This document shows positions 9,954 through 24,128 of a stretch of DNA of 43,851 nt, one piece after another. The position numbers and the translations under genes were made by a program. The notes beneath the pieces were generated by a model that was given only the letters and a program-made list of their open reading frames with translations, was not told the DNA's origin and did no database searches. Source of the stretch: Gammaproteobacteria bacterium. GTDB lineage: Bacteria; Pseudomonadota; Gammaproteobacteria; Acidiferrobacterales; SPGG2. Positions within the stretch are counted from its first letter, which is position 1. Each line of letters opens with the position of its first letter. Location: positions 1 to 43,851 of the forward strand of contig JAOTYM010000020.1 of NCBI GenBank assembly GCA_029861845.1, read 5' to 3'.

Positions 9954-10691
9954 ATGACTGAGCTAGCTGCAGTTCTCGATCGTATCCTTATTAAGACGCT
10001 GGGCGGCGTCCTCGACGGATATCTCTATCCGTTCATTCTCAAAGGCATGGTGGTGACCGTTGAACTGGCGTTAGCGTCACTCGCCATCGCGATCGTGCTC
10101 GGCATGATTGGCGCTGTCGCTAAGCTTTCCAACTCCCGCATCGCAAAGGCAGTCGCCGGCACTTACACCACACTCATCCGCGGTGTCCCTGGCATTGTCT
10201 TGATGTTCATTATCTTTTTCGGCGGACAGCTGTTAGTAAACAACATCGGTGACCTCTTGGGCTGGGACTATATTGAGATCAGTGAGTTCATCGCCGGCAG
10301 TGCCACCTTGGGCTTTATCTTCGGCGCCTACATGACTGAGAGTTTCCGCGGCGGCATTCTAGCCGTGCCACGCGGCGAAATCGAGGCCGGCTATACGTTT
10401 GGTATGACTGCGGCCCAGGTATTCTTTCGGATCACCCTGCCACAGATGGTGCGGCACGCGCTGCCCAGTTTCGGCAATAACTGGTTGGTGCTAACCAAGG
10501 AGACCGCCCTAGTATCGGTGATCGGTTTGCAAGATATGGTCTTCAATGCTAGCCAGGCGGGTGGCACGACAAGACAGCCGTTCACCTTTTTTTTCGTTGT
10601 CGCCGTGCTTTATTTGATTATCACCGCCGTATCAAAAGTCGGTCTGAGGTGGGCGGACAGGCGCTACAGCGTCGGCGTACGAAGGGCTTGA
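9954..10691 (+). CDS. Amino acid ABC transporter permease 1a (HisQ-like)
   Basis: The protein has 245 residues and several membrane segments. The start is LYPFILKGMVVTVELALASLAI, followed by the TLIRGVPGIVLMFIIFFGG segment. The EAA coupling loop EIEAGYTFGMTAAQVFFRITLPQ contacts the ATPase. The family is the HisM/HisQ-type permease of polar amino acid importers. It pairs with the next gene, which begins 3 bp after its stop. A nearly identical junction (GCTTGAACTATGGA) recurs in the second copy at 12274-12287. The ATG at 9954 lacks a clear ribosome site; a later start is possible because the paralogue (230 residues) lacks about 15 N-terminal residues. Confidence 0.9.
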   Translation: MTELAAVLDRILIKTLGGVLDGYLYPFILKGMVVTVELALASLAIAIVLGMIGAVAKLSNSRIAKAVAGTYTTLIRGVPGIVLMFIIFFGGQLLVNNIGDLLGWDYIEISEFIAGSATLGFIFGAYMTESFRGGILAVPRGEIEAGYTFGMTAAQVFFRITLPQMVRHALPSFGNNWLVLTKETALVSVIGLQDMVFNASQAGGTTRQPFTFFFVVAVLYLIITAVSKVGLRWADRRYSVGVRRA

Positions 10692-10694
10692 ACT

Positions 10695-11387
10695 ATGGAC
10701 TTAGCGGCCATTACTGACAATATACCGCTGTACTTCAAAGGTCTGTGGGTAACCATTCAGCTGCTTGTCCTAGCGCTTGCATGTGGTCTGGTACTAGCCG
10801 TCCCGATTGCGATGTGGGCAACCTCCAGAAATCCCCTGATCGCGAGCTGGCCCAAGGCCTTTATCTACTTTTTCACTGGGACGCCGCTACTGGTGCAGAT
10901 GTTTATTCTGTACTACGGCATGGCACAGTTCGAGGCGATACGGGAAAGTTTTCTGTGGCCAGTCTTTAAAGAAGCATACTGGTGTGCACTAATTGCTTTT
11001 TCACTGAACACGGCTGGCTATACGGCGGAAATCCTACGCGGCGCCATGAAACAGACCGATTTTGGTGAGTTAGATGCGGCCCGATCCTGCGGTATGTCAA
11101 AAGGCCTGATCTATCGGCGCATCATTCTGCCAAGTGCCTTTCGTCGCGCCCTGCCTGCCTATGGTAACGAAGTCATCTTCATGCTCCACGGTACTGCGCT
11201 TGCCGGCATTATCACTATTGTCGACTTGTTCGGTGCGGCTCGCATTGTCAACTCGCGCTACTTCGTACCGTTCGAGTCATTCGTCACGGCAGCTTTCTTT
11301 TACTTGTGCCTGACTTTCCTCATCGTATGGGGCTTCAAACTATGGGAGAAGCGTTGGCATGCACACTTACACCCACGCGACGCATAG
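10695..11387 (+). CDS. Amino acid ABC transporter permease 1b (HisM-like)
   Basis: The protein has 230 residues and about five membrane segments. It carries LYFKGLWVTIQLLVLALACGL, the FFTGTPLLVQMFILYYG motif and the EAA loop FGELDAARSCGMSKGLIYRR. It forms the heterodimeric channel with the preceding HisQ-like protein. Its C-terminus (KLWEKRWHAHLHPR) is the same as that of the paralogue at 12283-12975, showing a duplicated permease pair rather than independent acquisition. After its stop there are 199 bp before the second set begins. Confidence 0.92.
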   Translation: MDLAAITDNIPLYFKGLWVTIQLLVLALACGLVLAVPIAMWATSRNPLIASWPKAFIYFFTGTPLLVQMFILYYGMAQFEAIRESFLWPVFKEAYWCALIAFSLNTAGYTAEILRGAMKQTDFGELDAARSCGMSKGLIYRRIILPSAFRRALPAYGNEVIFMLHGTALAGIITIVDLFGAARIVNSRYFVPFESFVTAAFFYLCLTFLIVWGFKLWEKRWHAHLHPRDA

Positions 11388-11586
11388 TCCCATCTAGTTA
11401 CGCTGACTGCGACCCACTAGCATCGTCTCGCAAGGGGGTTGTTGCTTTCATCCATCGAGACCTGCACTACATACTCTGGTACCATGGATGCCATCGGCGG
11501 TTCCCGTGTCGGCTGTCGCCGCCGTGGCAAATGGATATTTGTAGACGCGGGCTCAATACAAGAACGCTAACATAGGAGCTTTCCGC

Positions 11587-12279
11587 GTGTTCGACCTTCA
11601 CGGCTATGGCCCGAGCATCCTGGAAGGCAGTTGGCTGACGGTCCAGCTGGCGCTCGCCTCACTGGCGATCGCGATCGTTCTCGGTATGGTTGCTGCGTTG
11701 GCCAAGCTGTCCAAATCGCCCATCGGTCGTGGCATCGCCGGCGGTTACACAACCGTTGTTCGCGGCATCCCCGAGCTCGTGTTGATGCTCCTGCTTTTCT
11801 TCGGCGGACAGCTGGTAATTAATTATCTGGCGGCCGAGGTGATCGGCTATGAAGAGTATATCGACATCGATCCGTTCACGGCGGGCGTAGCGACAATTGG
11901 GTTCATCTATGGCGCTTACATGGCCGAGACGTTCCGTGGCGCCATCCTCGCCGTCCATAGTGGCCAACTCGAAGCGGGGGCCGCTTACGGGATGAATAAA
12001 TGGCAAGTGTTCCATCGAATCCTGTTACCGCAGATGATCCGCTTTGCGCTACCCGGTTTCGGCAATAACTGGCTGGTCCTGCTCAAAGCCACGGCGTTGG
12101 TGTCCATCATCGGCCTTGACGATGTGCTGCGCAAGGCGGCACTTGCCGCCGGCGCAACCCGACTACCATTCACTTTCTACCTTACAGTCGGGGTCGTTTA
12201 TCTCGTGCTCACTACCGTTTCTATTATTTTGTTGCAGTGGGCTGACCGTCATTACAGTGCCGGCGTTAGGCGGGCTTGA
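11587..12279 (+). CDS. Amino acid ABC transporter permease 2a (HisQ-like, paralogue)
   Basis: The protein has 230 residues and starts at GTG 11587 with a good AGGAG about 8 bp upstream. It shares VTVELALASLAIAIVLGM-like openings and the RGIPELVLMLLLFFGG motif with the copy at 9954. The EAA loop is QLEAGAAYGMNKWQVFHRILLPQ. It is an inner-membrane channel subunit of a second polar amino acid importer lacking its own ATPase in the window. The following gene starts 3 bp after its stop, in the same junction sequence as the first pair. Confidence 0.91.
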   Translation: MFDLHGYGPSILEGSWLTVQLALASLAIAIVLGMVAALAKLSKSPIGRGIAGGYTTVVRGIPELVLMLLLFFGGQLVINYLAAEVIGYEEYIDIDPFTAGVATIGFIYGAYMAETFRGAILAVHSGQLEAGAAYGMNKWQVFHRILLPQMIRFALPGFGNNWLVLLKATALVSIIGLDDVLRKAALAAGATRLPFTFYLTVGVVYLVLTTVSIILLQWADRHYSAGVRRA

Positions 12280-12282
12280 ACT

Positions 12283-12975
12283 ATGGATTTCTCGATTATC
12301 AGTGACAATATCGGATTGTACCTTAACGGCTTGGTCATCACGGTCGAGCTGGTCGTCACGGCGCTGGTTCTGGGTCTGATGATCGCGGTACCGCTGGCCC
12401 TTATGAGGACATCCCGCAACCCGTTCATTTGGGGGCCGGTCTGGCTTTTCATATATGTTTTCCGCGGGACACCGCTGCTAGTGCAATTGTACGTGATCTA
12501 TTATGGGTTTGGTCAATTTGCTGCCGTACGCGAAAGTTTTTTGTGGCCTTATCTAAAGGAAGCGTACGTTTGTGCGCTAATTGCTTTTGCCCTCAATACG
12601 GCGGCCTACACGGCCGAAATCTTGCGGGGTGCAATCGAAGCGACCTTCCATGGCGAGGTCGAGGCGGCCAAGGCCTGCGGCATGTCAAGGTCGATGATGT
12701 TGCGACGTATAATCCTGCCGAGCGCGTTTCGCCGGGCGCTGCCTGCGTACAGCAACGAGGTGATCTTCATGTTGCATGGTAGCGCCATCGCCAGCGTGAT
12801 TACCATTCTCGACATCACTGGTGTCGCGCGGCTCATCAATTCACGCTTCTACAGCCCATACGAGGCATTTATCGCTGCTGCTTTATTCTACATGGCGCTT
12901 ACTTTTCTAATCGTATGGGGCTTCAAGCTGTGGGAGAAACGCTGGCATGCACACCTGCACCCGCGTCAACAATAG
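12283..12975 (+). CDS. Amino acid ABC transporter permease 2b (HisM-like, paralogue)
   Basis: The protein has 230 residues. It carries LYLNGLVITVELVVTALVLGL, FRGTPLLVQLYVIYYGFGQF, the EAA loop EVEAAKACGMSRSMMLRR and the same KLWEKRWHAHLHPR tail as its copy at 10695. It is the second half of the duplicated permease pair and should dock on the shared ATPase. Only 36 bp separate it from the second binding-protein gene, so expression is coupled. Confidence 0.92.
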   Translation: MDFSIISDNIGLYLNGLVITVELVVTALVLGLMIAVPLALMRTSRNPFIWGPVWLFIYVFRGTPLLVQLYVIYYGFGQFAAVRESFLWPYLKEAYVCALIAFALNTAAYTAEILRGAIEATFHGEVEAAKACGMSRSMMLRRIILPSAFRRALPAYSNEVIFMLHGSAIASVITILDITGVARLINSRFYSPYEAFIAAALFYMALTFLIVWGFKLWEKRWHAHLHPRQQ

Positions 12976-16026: not shown

Positions 16027-17448
16027 TTAATTTGTGGGTTGCAGCAGCTTCCGTACCGACGCAGAAATGCTGGCTTCTCCGCTTTCCCGGTAAGTTTCAT
16101 GATTCGTTTCGATATCTTTTCGTTTGTAACGATAGTTGACCATTAACCCACTCGATTGATGGATGCCCTTGGGGGAAATATCGCCGAGCCAGTTAATTCT
16201 CTCGATTCGCGCGCCATTGCTGAGATGAAAGTGCGCGACCCGGTCTCGCGCGTGACCTGCCGTTTTCTCGTGCGCGAGATAATGCGCGCAAAGACGCATA
16301 AGTGGTGCTTTAAGTGCTTGCGCCACGCGCCGGTCCTGATACCAGCTGGGGGTAGCGAGCAGATCATAAATGGGATGGCCGCTGTCGGTAACGGGTAGTA
16401 ATGGTTGTAGGGCATCGCGTTCAGACCGCGTCAATAATTGATCGTCTTGCTGTGTCAGTTTCTCCTTAAGGTAATGTCGAAAGCCAGGGATGGGTGATAA
16501 CGTCGCGAATGTCTTGATATTTGCCACCTCCCGAGCCAATCGATTAACAACCCGTTTGATAAGAAAGTCTCCGAAATTTACGCCATGTAAACCAGTTTGC
16601 GTGTTGGAGATCGAATAGAATATGGCGGTATTTGAGGTAAGCGGATCGCGCGGCGGTCGCGTTTCATCTAGCAGCGCCTGAATGCTGTTCGACATCCCAG
16701 AAACCAAGGCCACCTGCACAAAGATAAGCGGTTCATCGGGCATCCGCGGGTGGAAGAACGCATAACAGCGACGGTTGGGTCCCAGGCGATGTTTTAGATC
16801 ATCCCAGGACTTGATTTCATGCACCGCTTCATGGGCAATCAATTTCTCCAGGAGTGCAGCGGGCGCATCCCAGGTAATGCGCTTGAGGTCCAAAAACCCG
16901 ATATCAAACCACGAGGCAAGCAAGTCCTTAAGATCGTTGTCCAAGTTGTGCAGCCACAAGTCGCTGCCACTGTAACGCATGAGATCGGCGCGCATGTCTA
17001 CCAAAAACTTTACGCCGGCCGGCAGTGAGTTAAATTGCGTCAGTAACCGACGACTCGGTGGAGTCAGCACACGTCGCAGGTGCGCCTGTGCCGCGAACGC
17101 ACGTTCCGGGTTGTCGATTTCATGAATATCGCGTGTAGCCTGATAAAGCTCTTGGCGATCTACGACGAAGTCTTGGGCTAGGATCTGCAAAAAGCGCTTG
17201 CGTCCATGCTCATTGAGACCGAGGTAAGATTGCCCTAAGGCCGCCGCTCGTGCGCGCGCCGATACTTCGCCACCCCTCGCCAGCAAGCACGCACGCATCT
17301 GTGCCCGCAAGACGTCAGCATCATCGTCAGGCAGATCGGGTTGTAGCGACGGCGTTTCACCCGCGCGGGCAGACTGGCTAATGGCGCGCCAGGCACTCTT
17401 TAGGTTTACCAAGGTGCGTTGAAAGATGCTGGTCGATGGGGTGCTCAT
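16027..17448 (-). CDS. Malonyl-CoA decarboxylase
   Basis: The 473-residue protein matches the MCD family length. The N-terminal helical domain (to about 190) is followed by the GNAT-like catalytic domain with HPRMPDEPLIFVQVALV, SISNTQTGLHGVNFG (catalytic Ser near 280), LSPIPGFRHYL and FHLSNGARIERINW (catalytic His near 406). It converts malonyl-CoA to acetyl-CoA and CO2, either recycling malonyl-CoA or using malonate or malonate-semialdehyde-derived units. The gene lies 96 bp downstream of the GcvT-like gene, in the same direction, so it may be in the methyltransferase operon. That is an unusual partner; the connection is inferred only from position. Confidence 0.92.
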   Translation of the reverse strand: MSTPSTSIFQRTLVNLKSAWRAISQSARAGETPSLQPDLPDDDADVLRAQMRACLLARGGEVSARARAAALGQSYLGLNEHGRKRFLQILAQDFVVDRQELYQATRDIHEIDNPERAFAAQAHLRRVLTPPSRRLLTQFNSLPAGVKFLVDMRADLMRYSGSDLWLHNLDNDLKDLLASWFDIGFLDLKRITWDAPAALLEKLIAHEAVHEIKSWDDLKHRLGPNRRCYAFFHPRMPDEPLIFVQVALVSGMSNSIQALLDETRPPRDPLTSNTAIFYSISNTQTGLHGVNFGDFLIKRVVNRLAREVANIKTFATLSPIPGFRHYLKEKLTQQDDQLLTRSERDALQPLLPVTDSGHPIYDLLATPSWYQDRRVAQALKAPLMRLCAHYLAHEKTAGHARDRVAHFHLSNGARIERINWLGDISPKGIHQSSGLMVNYRYKRKDIETNHETYRESGEASISASVRKLLQPTN

Positions 17449-17544: not shown

Positions 17545-18693
17545 TCAAGAGACGGGGATGCTCTTTTCTGGATCATAGAAGGGGAAAGGCACAATCATGG
17601 CCTGTCTTTCTCCCTTGGGTATTTCTACGTCAAGCCTTGTACCCTCGCGGCTATGTTCCAGGTCCACGATCGCGATGCCGATATTTTTTTTCAAACGAGG
17701 TGAGTAAACACTCGAAGTTAGTTTGCCGACATGTCGGTCGTTATGGAACATAGCCCAGGGGTGTTCGTTACCTGCGCCCAGCGATGTGCCATCGATTTCT
17801 AGGCCAACCAGCTGTCGTTTTACGCCTTCGGTCTTAATCCTTTGCAATGCCGGCTTGCCAATAAAATTAGCTTCTTGATCGAGATCAACAAATTTCCCGA
17901 AGCCGAGTTCAAAAGGATTTTCGCTTAGCGTTATATCGGAGCCGTAGGACAACAGGCCGCCCTCGATTCGGCGAATATGTGAAGGTGCGCAGGGGCCAAT
18001 ATTATAGGGCTTGCCGGCCTCCATCACTGTTTCCCAAAGTCTATCCCCATGCTGGTTATCGCGCAGAAAGATTTCATAACCACGCTCGCTACTCCAGCCA
18101 GTCCGCGACACCACTACCGGTATGCCATGCAAATCCGTTTCCTTAAACCAGAAGTAACGAAGATCATTGATCCGATCACCAAACAATGGACGCATTACCA
18201 ATGTGGACTTGGGTCCTTGTACTTGCAGCGGCGATACGTCGGGTTCAGTGATGTTTACATTAAACTCTGAATTCACAGCGATGCCCTGTGCCCACAGCAA
18301 TACATCTGAATCGGCTAGCGACAACCAAAAGTGATTCTCACCCAGGCGCAGCAGAACGGGATCATTGATGATGCCGCCTTCCTCGTTTGTAATGAATACA
18401 TACTTACATTGACCGACCTTGCATTTGGACAGATTCCGTGGCGTCAACATTTGCACAAAGCGTGCGGCATCTGGGCCCGTTACCTCGACCTGACGTTGGC
18501 CGGCAACATCCCATAGTGTGACGTCATTGACCAACCGCCAATAGTCAGTAACACGGTCTTCATAGTACAGAGGCATGTAGGTATGGTTGTAGACGGTGTA
18601 TGCATTACAGCCATAGCGACGGGTGGCATCGAAAAAAGGTGACTTGCGTACGCGTGGTCCAAACGCAGTTAAGGGCTCTTTATCTACACTCAT
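17545..18693 (-). CDS. GcvT-family THF-dependent methyltransferase, DmdA (DMSP demethylase)-like
   Basis: This is a 382-residue aminomethyltransferase-fold protein. Its segments YTVYNH, LWDVAGQRQVEVTGPDA, MLTPRNLSKCK, INDPVLLRL, EPDVSPLQVQGPKS, SRTGWSSERGYEIFL and IEGGLLSYGSD resemble DmdA more than the glycine-cleavage T protein, in length as well. DmdA transfers a methyl group from dimethylsulfoniopropionate to tetrahydrofolate. The gene follows an MttB-superfamily gene by 53 bp, and related GcvT-like proteins may take methyl groups from quaternary amines, so its substrate may be DMSP or a betaine. No glycine-cleavage H or P genes are present. The family call is firm; the substrate is not. 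Confidence 0.82.
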   Translation of the reverse strand: MSVDKEPLTAFGPRVRKSPFFDATRRYGCNAYTVYNHTYMPLYYEDRVTDYWRLVNDVTLWDVAGQRQVEVTGPDAARFVQMLTPRNLSKCKVGQCKYVFITNEEGGIINDPVLLRLGENHFWLSLADSDVLLWAQGIAVNSEFNVNITEPDVSPLQVQGPKSTLVMRPLFGDRINDLRYFWFKETDLHGIPVVVSRTGWSSERGYEIFLRDNQHGDRLWETVMEAGKPYNIGPCAPSHIRRIEGGLLSYGSDITLSENPFELGFGKFVDLDQEANFIGKPALQRIKTEGVKRQLVGLEIDGTSLGAGNEHPWAMFHNDRHVGKLTSSVYSPRLKKNIGIAIVDLEHSREGTRLDVEIPKGERQAMIVPFPFYDPEKSIPVS

Positions 18694-18746: not shown

Positions 18747-20297
18747 CTAAACGTTAGAATCGGGGAAAGCGCTCTTACGGCGTGTCATGAAGTCCTGTAG
18801 TGCGTCGTCCACGGCCGCATCAAGAACTGGTGCCTCGTAGTCTTCGAGCATTTGTTTCCATATCTTATTGGCGCGTTGCGCCGCATCCATATTACCTTCT
18901 GACTGCCATTGCTCAAAGCTATTATTGTCGGCGATATTCGAACGATAGAAAGCCGTTTCAAAATTGGCCTGCGTGTGGGCACAACCGAGAAAATGTTGCC
19001 CGGGCCCGACTTCGCGAATGGCGTCCATGGCCTGACCGTTTTCAGACAGATCTACGCCATTCAAGAACACTTGCGCCATGCCTGCTTGATCAGCATCCAT
19101 GATGAATTTTTCGTAACCCATGGCCAAACCGCCTTCGAGCCAACCGGCGGTGTGAAGAACAAAGTTTACGCCGGCAAGAATAGTTGGCTGTAATGTGTTG
19201 GCGCTCTCGTAGGCGGCTTGTGCATCGGGAATCTTGGATGCGCATAATGCGCCGCCACTGCGAAACGGTACGCCCAAACGTCGTGCCAGGGCCGCCGCAA
19301 TAAACAACACCAAAGATGGTTCCGGAGTTCCGAACGTCGGGGCCCCCGACTGCATTGATATTGAGCTGCCAAATGTCCCGAAAATGACGGGGGCGCCGGG
19401 ACGTACAAGCTGGGTAAAGGCCATGCCGGCCTGCGCCTCGGCAAACAGTTGTGCCACTGTTCCCGCTACCGTAACCGGCGACATCGCTCCCGCGAGTATG
19501 AATGGTGAGATTAAAGTGGCTTGATTGGCACGGGCATATACCTTTGTTGCCGCTAACATTGTGCCATCAAAGGTCATGGGCGAGTTCGCATTGATTAAGC
19601 TAGTAATCACCGCGTTTTTGTCGACAAATTCTTCACCGAAAACAATCTTTGCCATTTCTACGGTGTCTTGGGCGCGCTCAGCCTGCGTTACCGAACCCAT
19701 GAAGGGTTTGTCGCTGTAGCGTATATGGCTATACACCATGTCCAAGTGTCGTTTATTGACCGGGAGATCAACCGGCTCGCAGACGGTACCCCCGGAATGG
19801 TGTATGGCCGGGGATAAGTACGCCAATTTCACAAAGTTGCGAAAATCTTCGATCGTGGCGTAGCGCCGGCCCTCATCGAGGTTACGGATAAACGGCGGTC
19901 CGTACGCGGGCGCGAACACGGTATTGTCGCCGCCGATGGATACGCTGCGGGCTGGATTGCGCGCATGCTGGGTGAATTCCTTTGGCGCCGTTGCCTGGAT
20001 TAAACTGCGACACATACCGCGAGGAAACCGTACGCGCTCACCATCTACGTCAGCGCCGGCATCTTTTAAGATCTGTAGCGCTTCCGGGTCGTCGCGAAAC
20101 TCGATGCCCGTTTCCTGGAGGATGGTTTCGGCGTTGTGCTCGAGCAACTCGAGGCCGTCTTCGCCTAATATCTCGTAAATCGGCAGCTTGCGCGTGATAT
20201 AGGGATTCTGTGCCAGCGGCGGTTTGGCCCGAGCTGCGCGGCGAGCCGCCCGCCCAGCGCCTCGTCTACCCGGCCCTCTATCTTGCACGTCACTCAT
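18747..20297 (-). CDS. Trimethylamine methyltransferase (MttB) superfamily protein, non-pyrrolysine
   Basis: This is a 516-residue protein with an Arg-rich, probably disordered first 25 residues, then PYITRKLPIYEILGEDGLE and a TIM-barrel body (GTFGSSISMQSGAPTFG, LGVPFRSGGALCASKIPDA, GLAMGYEKFIMDADQAGM). These are characteristic of the MttB superfamily. It is read through with sense codons only, so it belongs to the large non-pyrrolysine branch, known members of which demethylate glycine betaine, proline betaine or carnitine using a corrinoid protein. No corrinoid protein or reductive activase is in the window. The adjacent DmdA/GcvT-like gene could supply the folate methyl acceptor. The start has no strong ribosome site. 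Confidence 0.9.
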   Translation of the reverse strand: MSDVQDRGPGRRGAGRAARRAARAKPPLAQNPYITRKLPIYEILGEDGLELLEHNAETILQETGIEFRDDPEALQILKDAGADVDGERVRFPRGMCRSLIQATAPKEFTQHARNPARSVSIGGDNTVFAPAYGPPFIRNLDEGRRYATIEDFRNFVKLAYLSPAIHHSGGTVCEPVDLPVNKRHLDMVYSHIRYSDKPFMGSVTQAERAQDTVEMAKIVFGEEFVDKNAVITSLINANSPMTFDGTMLAATKVYARANQATLISPFILAGAMSPVTVAGTVAQLFAEAQAGMAFTQLVRPGAPVIFGTFGSSISMQSGAPTFGTPEPSLVLFIAAALARRLGVPFRSGGALCASKIPDAQAAYESANTLQPTILAGVNFVLHTAGWLEGGLAMGYEKFIMDADQAGMAQVFLNGVDLSENGQAMDAIREVGPGQHFLGCAHTQANFETAFYRSNIADNNSFEQWQSEGNMDAAQRANKIWKQMLEDYEAPVLDAAVDDALQDFMTRRKSAFPDSNV

Positions 20298-20739: not shown

Positions 20740-22389
20740 ATGAAAACACATGCACGGGTGGTGGTGATTGGCGGCGGTGTCGTGGGCGTAAGTACGCTTT
20801 ATCACCTCACTAAGAAAGGTTGGTCGGATGTAGTGCTAGTGGAGAAGGCTGACCTTACCCAGGGCTCGACCTGGCATGCCGCTGGCCTCCTTCCCCTGTT
20901 TAACATGAGCTATAGCGTCGGCCAGTTGCACAAGTACAGCGTCGACCTATACAAGATGCTCGAAGCCGAGACCGGCCAGGATGTAGGCTTTCATGTGACC
21001 GGCAACTTACGCCTAGCTACAAATAAAGAGCGCATGGACGGTTGGCAACTAGCCGAGTGGATAGTCGAAGGCGAGCCGGGTATCGACATGCTCGGCGTTG
21101 ATCCACAACGATTCGGTGGATACGCAAACAAACAATACACTAAGCTCAAAAACGAAGAAACCTACGAGCACGTCTTTATCATCCATTATCCCGACGAAGA
21201 GCGGCCGGCGGCGCGCCCGGCCAAGACCAGCCCCTGTCATGACCGCTTGGATGCCCATGGCGCGGTGTGGGGGCAGCGTTATGGTTGGGAACGGCCTAAC
21301 TGGTTTGCACCTAAAGGCGTGAAACGAAAGGACGACTGGAGTTTTCGTCGCAGCAAGTATTGGGAGCATGTCGGCAATGAATGCAAGATCACGCGTGAGC
21401 GGGCTACGATTATCGATATTACTAGTTTTACTAAGCATGAAGTTTCGGGTCCCGGGGCAGAGGCGTATCTCGATCGGGTGGTAGCGCGCAAGTTGCCAAA
21501 GCGCACCGGGCGGGTCAGCCTATCGCACGCATTGACACCCTCGGGTGGTGTGCGTAGCGAGTTCACGACTACACGTTGGGGGCCCAATCGGTTCTATCTA
21601 GTAAGTTCTGGTGCGGCTGAGCGATATGATAACGATTTGTTGGTAAAACAACTCCCCGATGACGGCAGCGTCACATTAAGCAATATAACCACGAGTTATG
21701 GTGTGCTCGTATTAGTTGGCCCGCGATCACGCGATATCCTCAGTAAAGTTACTGACGCAGATCTATCGAATGAAGCATTTCCGTGGCTGACTGGACAGCA
21801 GATCCATGTCGGCGTGGCACCAACGCTCGCGCTTCGAGTGAACTTCGTTGACGAGTTGGGTTGGGAATTGCATCACCCCATCGAATATCAGAACCACATC
21901 TTCGACGCCCTGATGGCAGCCGGCGAGGAGTACAGTATTGGACTTTGCGGTATGCGGGCGATGGATTCCCTCAGGATCGAGAAATCGTATCGCATGTGGG
22001 GTCAAGATCTTACGACCGAATACTCGGCATTCGAGGCCGGCTTGGATCGGTTTATTTATCTCGACAAAGGGGACTTCGTTGGTCGCGACGCGTTAGTGAA
22101 ACAGAAACAAGAGGGTGTGCCGCAGCGTTTTATCACCCTGGACGTCGATGTCGATGACGCCGATGCGCTCGGCAATGAGCCGATATATCAAGGTGGAACC
22201 ATGGTAGGCCGAGCAACAGCAGGGGCCTATGGGCATGTGGTCAAGAAGAGTCTGGCGTTAGCGTATGTTAAACCTGAAACGGCGAATATCGGTACCGCGC
22301 TAGAGATCGAAATCCTCGGCAAGCGGCATCGGGCGACAGTAATTGAAGAGTCACCGTGGGATCCTGAGAACAAGCGACTCAGGGCCTAA
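20740..22389 (+). CDS. Dimethylglycine/sarcosine dehydrogenase-like FAD/GcvT protein with internal in-frame deletion
   Basis: The 549-residue frame begins like a DMGDH-type fusion: VVVIGGGVVGVSTLYHL dinucleotide motif and GSTWHAAGLL covalent-FAD-type segment. It jumps at residue about 100 from NLRLATNKERMDG directly to WQLAEWIVEGEPGIDM. In relatives I know, roughly 260 residues of the FAD-dependent oxidoreductase domain lie between those two segments. The remainder (FAO_M linker, then a GcvT folate-binding domain with SYRMWGQDLTTEYSAFEAG) is complete. Intact enzymes (about 810 residues) oxidise dimethylglycine or sarcosine and pass electrons to ETF, whose genes follow. AGGAGG precedes the ATG. 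The truncated protein is unlikely to bind FAD properly; it may be a decayed enzyme, a folate-only protein or an assembly error. Confidence 0.85.
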   Translation: MKTHARVVVIGGGVVGVSTLYHLTKKGWSDVVLVEKADLTQGSTWHAAGLLPLFNMSYSVGQLHKYSVDLYKMLEAETGQDVGFHVTGNLRLATNKERMDGWQLAEWIVEGEPGIDMLGVDPQRFGGYANKQYTKLKNEETYEHVFIIHYPDEERPAARPAKTSPCHDRLDAHGAVWGQRYGWERPNWFAPKGVKRKDDWSFRRSKYWEHVGNECKITRERATIIDITSFTKHEVSGPGAEAYLDRVVARKLPKRTGRVSLSHALTPSGGVRSEFTTTRWGPNRFYLVSSGAAERYDNDLLVKQLPDDGSVTLSNITTSYGVLVLVGPRSRDILSKVTDADLSNEAFPWLTGQQIHVGVAPTLALRVNFVDELGWELHHPIEYQNHIFDALMAAGEEYSIGLCGMRAMDSLRIEKSYRMWGQDLTTEYSAFEAGLDRFIYLDKGDFVGRDALVKQKQEGVPQRFITLDVDVDDADALGNEPIYQGGTMVGRATAGAYGHVVKKSLALAYVKPETANIGTALEIEILGKRHRATVIEESPWDPENKRLRA

Positions 22390-22443: not shown

Positions 22444-23196
22444 GTGAAAATATTGGTCGCGGTTAAGCGCGTCGTTGATTACAACGTGAACATACGGGTC
22501 AAGGCGGACGGTTCTGCAGTTGAAACCGCCAATGTCAAAATGTCTATGAACCCTTTCGATGAAGTTGCGGTTGAAAAAGCCATTCGTCTCAAGGAAGCGG
22601 GACTGGCAGAAGAAATCATTGCGGTATCGGTCGGCCCTGAAAAATCCCAAGAAACACTGCGAACCGCTCTGGCAATGGGTGCCGATCGTGGTGTGCACGT
22701 ACGAACCGATATCGACACGGAGCCACTCGCGGTAGCGAAAATTATCAAAGCGATCGTGGAGAAGGAAGAGCCGCAACTTGTTTTATTGGGCAAGCAAGCA
22801 ATAGACGATGATTGTAATCAAACTGCGCAAATGTTATCCGCCCTCCTTGGTTGGTCACAGGGTACCTTTGCGTCCAAATTGGAGATCTCGGGCGGTACGG
22901 CTGAGGTGGTGCGCGAGGTCGATGCCGGGTTGGAAAAGATTTCCATTAAGATGCCGGCCATTGTGAGCGTAGATCTACGTCTCAATGAACCGCGCTATGC
23001 ATCGTTACCCAATATCATGAAGGCCAAGAAGAAACCGATTGACCAATATACCCCAGAAGATCTGGCTATAGATGTCACACCACGAGTAAAAACCCTGAAG
23101 GTCGAGGAACCACCCAAGCGCAGTGCTGGTGTCATCGTCGATAGTGTGGCCGCGCTCATAGATAAACTTAGGAACGAAGCCAAGGTGATTTCATGA
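22444..23196 (+). CDS. etfB: Electron transfer flavoprotein subunit beta
   Basis: The protein has 250 residues from GTG 22444 ([20 protein letters not shown] after initiation), chosen because GGAGG at 22433-22437 is 6 bp upstream and the length equals the family norm. The upstream ATG at 22417 adds nine residues without a ribosome site. Family marks are [37 protein letters not shown] and [20 protein letters not shown] (AMP-binding and interface regions). With EtfA it accepts electrons from acyl-CoA or methylamine dehydrogenases and hands them to ETF-ubiquinone oxidoreductase. It follows the dehydrogenase-like gene and overlaps etfA by 4 bp. Confidence 0.95.
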
Positions 23197-24128
23197 GTAT
23201 TCTTGTTGTTGCCGAGCACGATAACTCGGAGCTCAAAACTGCTACCTTGAACACAATCGCCGCGGCCCAAAAGGTCGGTGGCGATATTGACTTGTTGGTA
23301 GTTGGGCATGAGTGCAATAGCGTCAGTGAAGCGGCAGCGAAGGTTGTTGGCATATCAAGAGTGCTAGCTGCCGACGCGCCTGAACTTGCTCACCACCTGG
23401 CCGAGAATGTTGCACCTATTTTGGTGAATATCGCCAAGAACTACAGCCATATTTTTGCCCCCGCTACGACGTTCGGTAAGAATATTATGCCGCGAGCCGC
23501 AGCACTACTGGACGTATCACAGATATCGGATATCAGCGACGTTGTTTCCGGCGATACATTTGTGCGCCTAATCTATGCTGGTAACGCCATCGCCACTGTG
23601 CAATCGAGCGATGAGCTCAAACTAGTCACCGTACGTACGACCAAATTTGAACCGGTTGGTGCCGAAGGCGGGTCAGCAACGGTAGAGGCCTTGGCGGGTA
23701 GTGGTGACAGCGGATTGTCTAGCTTTATGGGTCAAGAAGTGACCGAATCTGAACGTCCAGAACTGACAACTGCCAAGGTGGTTATATCAGGTGGCCGAGG
23801 TATGCAGAACGGCGAGAACTTCGCGATGTTGGAAAAGATTGCCGATAAGTTGAATGCCGCTGTGGGCGCGTCGCGAGCAGCCGTTGACGCGGGTTATGTC
23901 CCTAATGAATACCAAGTGGGTCAAACTGGTAAGGTTGTGGCGCCCGATCTATACATCGCGGTGGGTATCTCAGGGGCCATACAACACCTGGCTGGCATGA
24001 AGGATAGCAAAGTCATCGCTGCGATTAACAACGACTCCGAGGCGCCAATATTTCAGGTTGCGGATTATGGGCTAGTCGCCGACCTGTTGACGGCGCTGCC
24101 CGAGTTTCTTGTCGAACTCGAAAAGTAG
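23193..24128 (+). CDS. etfA: Electron transfer flavoprotein subunit alpha
   Basis: The protein has 311 residues. It overlaps etfB by ATGA, so it is coupled. The C-terminal FAD-binding domain shows [56 protein letters not shown] and [19 protein letters not shown], all canonical. It binds the redox FAD of the ETF heterodimer. Immediate linkage to the dimethylglycine-dehydrogenase-like gene suggests this ETF was dedicated to N-methyl-amine oxidation, although a general fatty-acid ETF role cannot be excluded, especially as the linked dehydrogenase is damaged. Confidence 0.95.

Follow-up and report, generated by a model that had tools for sequence, protein, structure and literature searches.

A dimethylglycine dehydrogenase-like reading frame without 261 codons of its flavin domain, beside intact etfBA in a gammaproteobacterial draft genome

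Two-domain methyl-group dehydrogenases and the locus studied

Enzymes that remove methyl groups from dimethylglycine and similar compounds may combine a flavin domain with a folate-binding domain. In human dimethylglycine dehydrogenase (DMGDH), residues 46-466, about 420 in all, form the FAD domain, which is followed by a folate domain, and a histidine serves as the site of flavin attachment (PMC5082570). The dimethylglycine oxidase (DMGO) of Arthrobacter globiformis (1PJ5), an oxidase that is not ETF-linked, has the same domain order and carries H225 and Y259 as its catalytic dyad (cited in PMC5082570). Stand-alone members of the GcvT family also exist, such as the T-protein (1YX2, 1WOS) and the demethylase DmdA (3tfh). 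In marine Proteobacteria, dmgdh-etfBA and mttB-dmgdh gene groups are found, and such neighbours are expected in clusters for methyl-group degradation of the glycine-betaine type (PMC12478193).

The window analysed here is positions 1-43,851 of contig JAOTYM010000020.1 (assembly GCA_029861845.1, hereafter genome G000), and it contains a DMGDH-like gene with these same neighbours (Table 1). All members of the marine gene groups that were examined encode the full-length enzyme, unlike the gene in the window. The original prediction described this gene as having lost about 260 residues (about 780 bp) of its FAD domain in frame, with the GcvT half intact and ETF genes directly after it, and Pfam, phmmer and alignment to a sister ortholog bore out the reading frame, the join and the size of the loss. 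The ORF, which is preceded by a plausible ribosome-binding site, matches only positions 1-114 of the 353 in the DAO profile before continuing into FAO_M, GCV_T and GCV_T_C, and thus does not encode a complete FAD domain. On the human DMGDH structure 5l46, query residues 2-103 correspond to chain residues 20-121 and query residues 101-538 to chain residues 381-819 (phmmer), such that the two stretches lie about 260 residues apart on both human and rat structures.

Pfam and the predicted fold identify the C-terminal half as a folate-binding GcvT domain, its fold matching that of the T-protein. In contrast to GcvT itself, however, this half remains attached to what is left of the flavin domain, a broken stub of some 160 residues, and the ORF scores below the GcvT NCBIfam cut-offs (TIGR00528, the GcvT equivalog: 137.9 against 235.85 bits), which sets it apart from a stand-alone GcvT aminomethyltransferase.

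Table 1. Features of the window at and around the DMGDH-like gene
Feature	Position	Strand	Remarks
DMGDH-like gene, internal 783-bp in-frame deletion	20740..22389	+	549 aa; ortholog 810 aa
N-terminal FAD-domain stub, retained, residues 1-100	20740..21039	+	Pfam DAO; GxGxxG, H46
Deletion junction	21039..21040	.	CG 2-bp microhomology; lacks 783 bp of ortholog (L043 residues 101-361, including H225, Y258)
FAD-domain end and FAO_M linker, retained, residues 101-164	21040..21231	+	Pfam FAO_M 110-164
Folate-binding GcvT half, intact	21235..22386	+	GCV_T 166-437, GCV_T_C 463-541; T-protein fold
etfB, intact	22444..23196	+	dN/dS 0.05
etfA, intact	23193..24128	+	dN/dS 0.11
MttB-family methyltransferase, no in-frame stop, divergent neighbour	18747..20297	-	Pfam MTTB
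GcvT-family protein, DmdA-like	17545..18693	-	NCBIfam DMSP-demethylase 415.2 bits against cut-off 410 (narrow pass)

The gap and what it removes from the protein

One genome of the same genus was available for close comparison, namely SPGG2 (G001), a MAG from sediment of the South Pacific Gyre (PMC4959193), in which a syntenic, full-length ortholog (L043) is present. The two-domain architecture of this ortholog is that of mitochondrial DMGDH, with residues 2-799 aligning end to end to the rat (4P9S/4PAB) and human (5L46) enzymes. Synteny and sequence identity (97% for residues 1-100, 92% for those that follow) show that the ORF in the window descends from such a full-length gene, and neither the GcvT half nor etfB/etfA is damaged, with 92-96% identity to the sister. 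The alignment is broken by one clean gap of exactly 783 bp, or 261 codons, which joins D100 to G362. The left match ends in ATGGACG and the right match begins with CGGTTGG; blastn returned two pieces that have only 2 bp in common, the CG at window 21039-21040, and no direct repeat was found at this junction beyond that overlap.

An assembly join across a repeat had originally been offered as one explanation, and it can be rejected, as the junction shares only 2 bp and therefore leaves no repeat for an assembler to collapse. Misplacement of the missing segment onto another contig is likewise rejected: the segment was not found elsewhere in the window's assembly, where the sole match was 86 bp at 71% identity on a contig that bears a paralogue (G000:C204). 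The same two observations speak against other kinds of artefact, in which the short form would stem from a read made chimeric by amplification, from a minority strain or from a shortcut taken by the assembler, and the organism itself would have the full-length gene. Such an origin is nevertheless possible, if rather unlikely. The window's genome is a draft of 275 contigs with 4.2% contamination. The DNA behind SPGG2 was low-input and amplified (PMC4959193), and in that genome, too, a conserved gene has a clean deletion (180 bp, malonyl-CoA decarboxylase). A literature search on internal deletions as artefacts of metagenome assembly found nothing useful.

Some 60% of the flavin domain lies within the gap. 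The sister's H225 and Y258 align to H225 and Y259 of DMGO and are both invariant across 35 homologues, and both lie inside the deleted stretch, such that the copy in the window lacks the catalytic His/Tyr pair of the mitochondrial enzymes and of DMGO alike. The stub keeps the GxGxxG loop (G11-G16) and, like mitochondrial DMGDH, the covalent-FAD histidine, here H46 in the motif GSTWHAAGL, which is invariant among the homologues compared. In an AlphaFold2 model of the short form, built from a 36-sequence alignment, residues 1-161 were of low confidence (block mean pLDDT 24-64), as compared with 63-95 for residues 1-100 of the full-length sister, which served as a control; from residue 211 onwards pLDDT was mostly above 90, and the folate half was modelled with high confidence. 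Foldseek matched the model to DMGDH and T-protein folds, the latter with a TMt of 0.94. The folate domain should therefore fold as modelled, and the first 160 or so residues should not. Given the loss of the dyad and of much of the FAD domain, together with the low confidence of residues 1-161, we strongly infer that dehydrogenase activity has been lost, and ETF-linked oxidative demethylation should not be expected of this protein.

Constraint, timing and the origin of the short form

Pairwise dN/dS against the sister is about 0.05 for the stub, where 5 differences are nonsynonymous and 23 synonymous, and 0.11 for the rest of the retained codons, similar to the values for etfB (0.05), etfA (0.11) and mttB (0.07); the constraint that the original prediction proposed to look for is thus present. 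When amino-acid changes were polarised with seven outgroups, 10 fell on the window branch, 18 on that of the intact sister, and 10 were ambiguous (binomial p 0.18), and the window lineage therefore shows no acceleration. We relied on these pairwise values and on parsimony polarisation, having discarded a three-taxon codon model with branch-specific omega because synonymous sites were saturated to all outgroups and the estimates lay at their bounds.

A stub that is still strongly constrained, in a lineage that has not accelerated, implies that the deletion, if real, is recent. Under neutral drift since the split, the window branch would be expected to have gathered about 49 nonsynonymous changes in the stub, and at most 5 were observed; if the stub became useless at the moment of deletion, the event would, as a rough bound, be no older than about the final fifth of that branch. 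A pseudogene would be expected to show relaxed constraint after its lesion; that no acceleration was seen on the window branch fits a lesion that is too young, one that is artefactual, or a product that has been retained. An artefact predicts the identical pattern, since the remnant of an intact gene would be just as undisturbed, and an open frame with constraint on every retained part would also be given by a functional short protein.

The original prediction had also raised the possibility that homologues of about 549 residues are the norm in this clade, and this is rejected. On the contigs of the 80 closest relatives, the spacing of the two stretches is 260, 261 or 267 residues in every case (80/80 full length), and surveys that took in 4 genomes of the family, 57 of the order, 369 of the class and 398 of the phylum found no other short form. 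At the cut-offs tested, survey matches were broken in two near residue 101, the pattern of a full-length enzyme, and the window alone was matched from 1 to 549 without a break. Among the sequences searched the short form is thus seen in the window only, and it looks like an ordinary recent loss, or a slip of sequencing or assembly, rather than a new kind of protein.

A further reading is that the protein has given up its FAD half and that its GcvT half now works alone, as an aminomethyltransferase or in a regulatory role, possibly with the neighbouring MttB or DmdA-like protein. The preserved frame, the constraint on a GcvT half that is predicted to be well folded and T-protein-like, and the precedent of DmdA are all consistent with this idea. 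We nonetheless consider it very doubtful, as the protein still carries a flavin stub that is predicted not to fold, that stub is constrained just as in an intact enzyme and gives no hint of a new selective regime, and every relative examined lacks the short form. Although it would be tempting to see here how, within one genus, a two-domain DMGDH could become a stand-alone aminomethyl- or methyltransferase once its flavin half was lost, the case for a real, selected folate-only derivative of this kind seems to us exceedingly slim.

Of the three options in the original prediction, then, the repeat-mediated join fails and the folate-binding-only protein gains no positive support, and a recent loss is the best supported, with a normally constrained remnant, one affected lineage and relatives that are all full length. 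We postulate a young loss-of-function deletion in one copy of a DMGDH-type gene, to which we assign a probability of roughly 0.6. A single recent event, probably illegitimate recombination at the 2-bp microhomology, would have removed residues 101-361 of a normal ETF-linked enzyme of the dimethylglycine/sarcosine-dehydrogenase type, the frame being kept by chance (1 in 3). With its ADP-binding loop and flavin-attachment histidine but without the catalytic pair and most of the flavin domain, the product is not expected to bind FAD as it should, or to be able to oxidise substrate and reduce ETF. The folate domain of this product could still fold, but no methylene donor would feed it. Such a young allele would presumably be tolerated because eight more full-length paralogues, with open frames of 808-853 aa, are encoded in the genome. 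Together with several stand-alone GcvT-like proteins, these DMGDH/sarcosine-dehydrogenase-like paralogues (at least eight) make up a large set for a 4.5-Mb genome.

Neighbouring genes and other gaps between the two genomes

Of 88 relatives, about 40 have etfBA directly 3' of the gene for the full-length enzyme, and 29 have an mttB homologue nearby. That etfBA is intact in the window and is commonly found in this position suggests that this gene group was complete until recently, and is no demonstration that the short protein is functional. The MttB-family neighbour, which lacks an in-frame stop, is of the non-pyrrolysine kind, and may have a glycine-betaine MtgB-type role. For annotation, the ORF should not be named a functional dimethylglycine or sarcosine dehydrogenase despite its well-scoring GcvT half, and the adjoining ETF genes are no proof of an active enzyme.

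Across 91 kb of alignment between G000 and G001, four clean gaps longer than 150 bp with 1-2 bp of shared ends were detected: 783 bp (the DMGDH-like gene) and 253 bp are missing from G000, and 180 bp and 793 bp from G001. With three other clean deletions in 91 kb, the 783-bp event is not exceptional. The 180-bp gap lies in the sister's malonyl-CoA decarboxylase gene (L043:1479-2720; intact in the window at 16027-17448), where 60 codons of the conserved C-terminal domain are missing in frame, with 1 bp shared at the ends. The 793-bp gap (counterpart L152, G000:C93, 933-1723) and the 253-bp gap (counterpart L168, G001:C54, about 11400-11651) each share about 2 bp at their ends, and reflect either frequent microhomology deletions or a shared draft-assembly artefact. 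In addition, the sister's DmdA-like gene (L043:2700-4000, minus strand) is a pseudogene, interrupted by a TAG codon in frame and by a frameshift of one base. Gene decay and clean deletions thus belong to the background of this pair of genomes, or of their draft assemblies, and the DMGDH-like gene adds a minor case of clean deletion at microhomology, or of a draft-assembly artefact with the same look, from a genus in which methyl-group dehydrogenases are numerous and redundant.

Elsewhere in the window, four consecutive ORFs of 230-245 aa (9954-12975), downstream of a family-3 solute-binding protein, have the look of doubled pairs of putative ABC permeases; this region does not align to the sister contig, in which the corresponding gap is 2.4 kb shorter.
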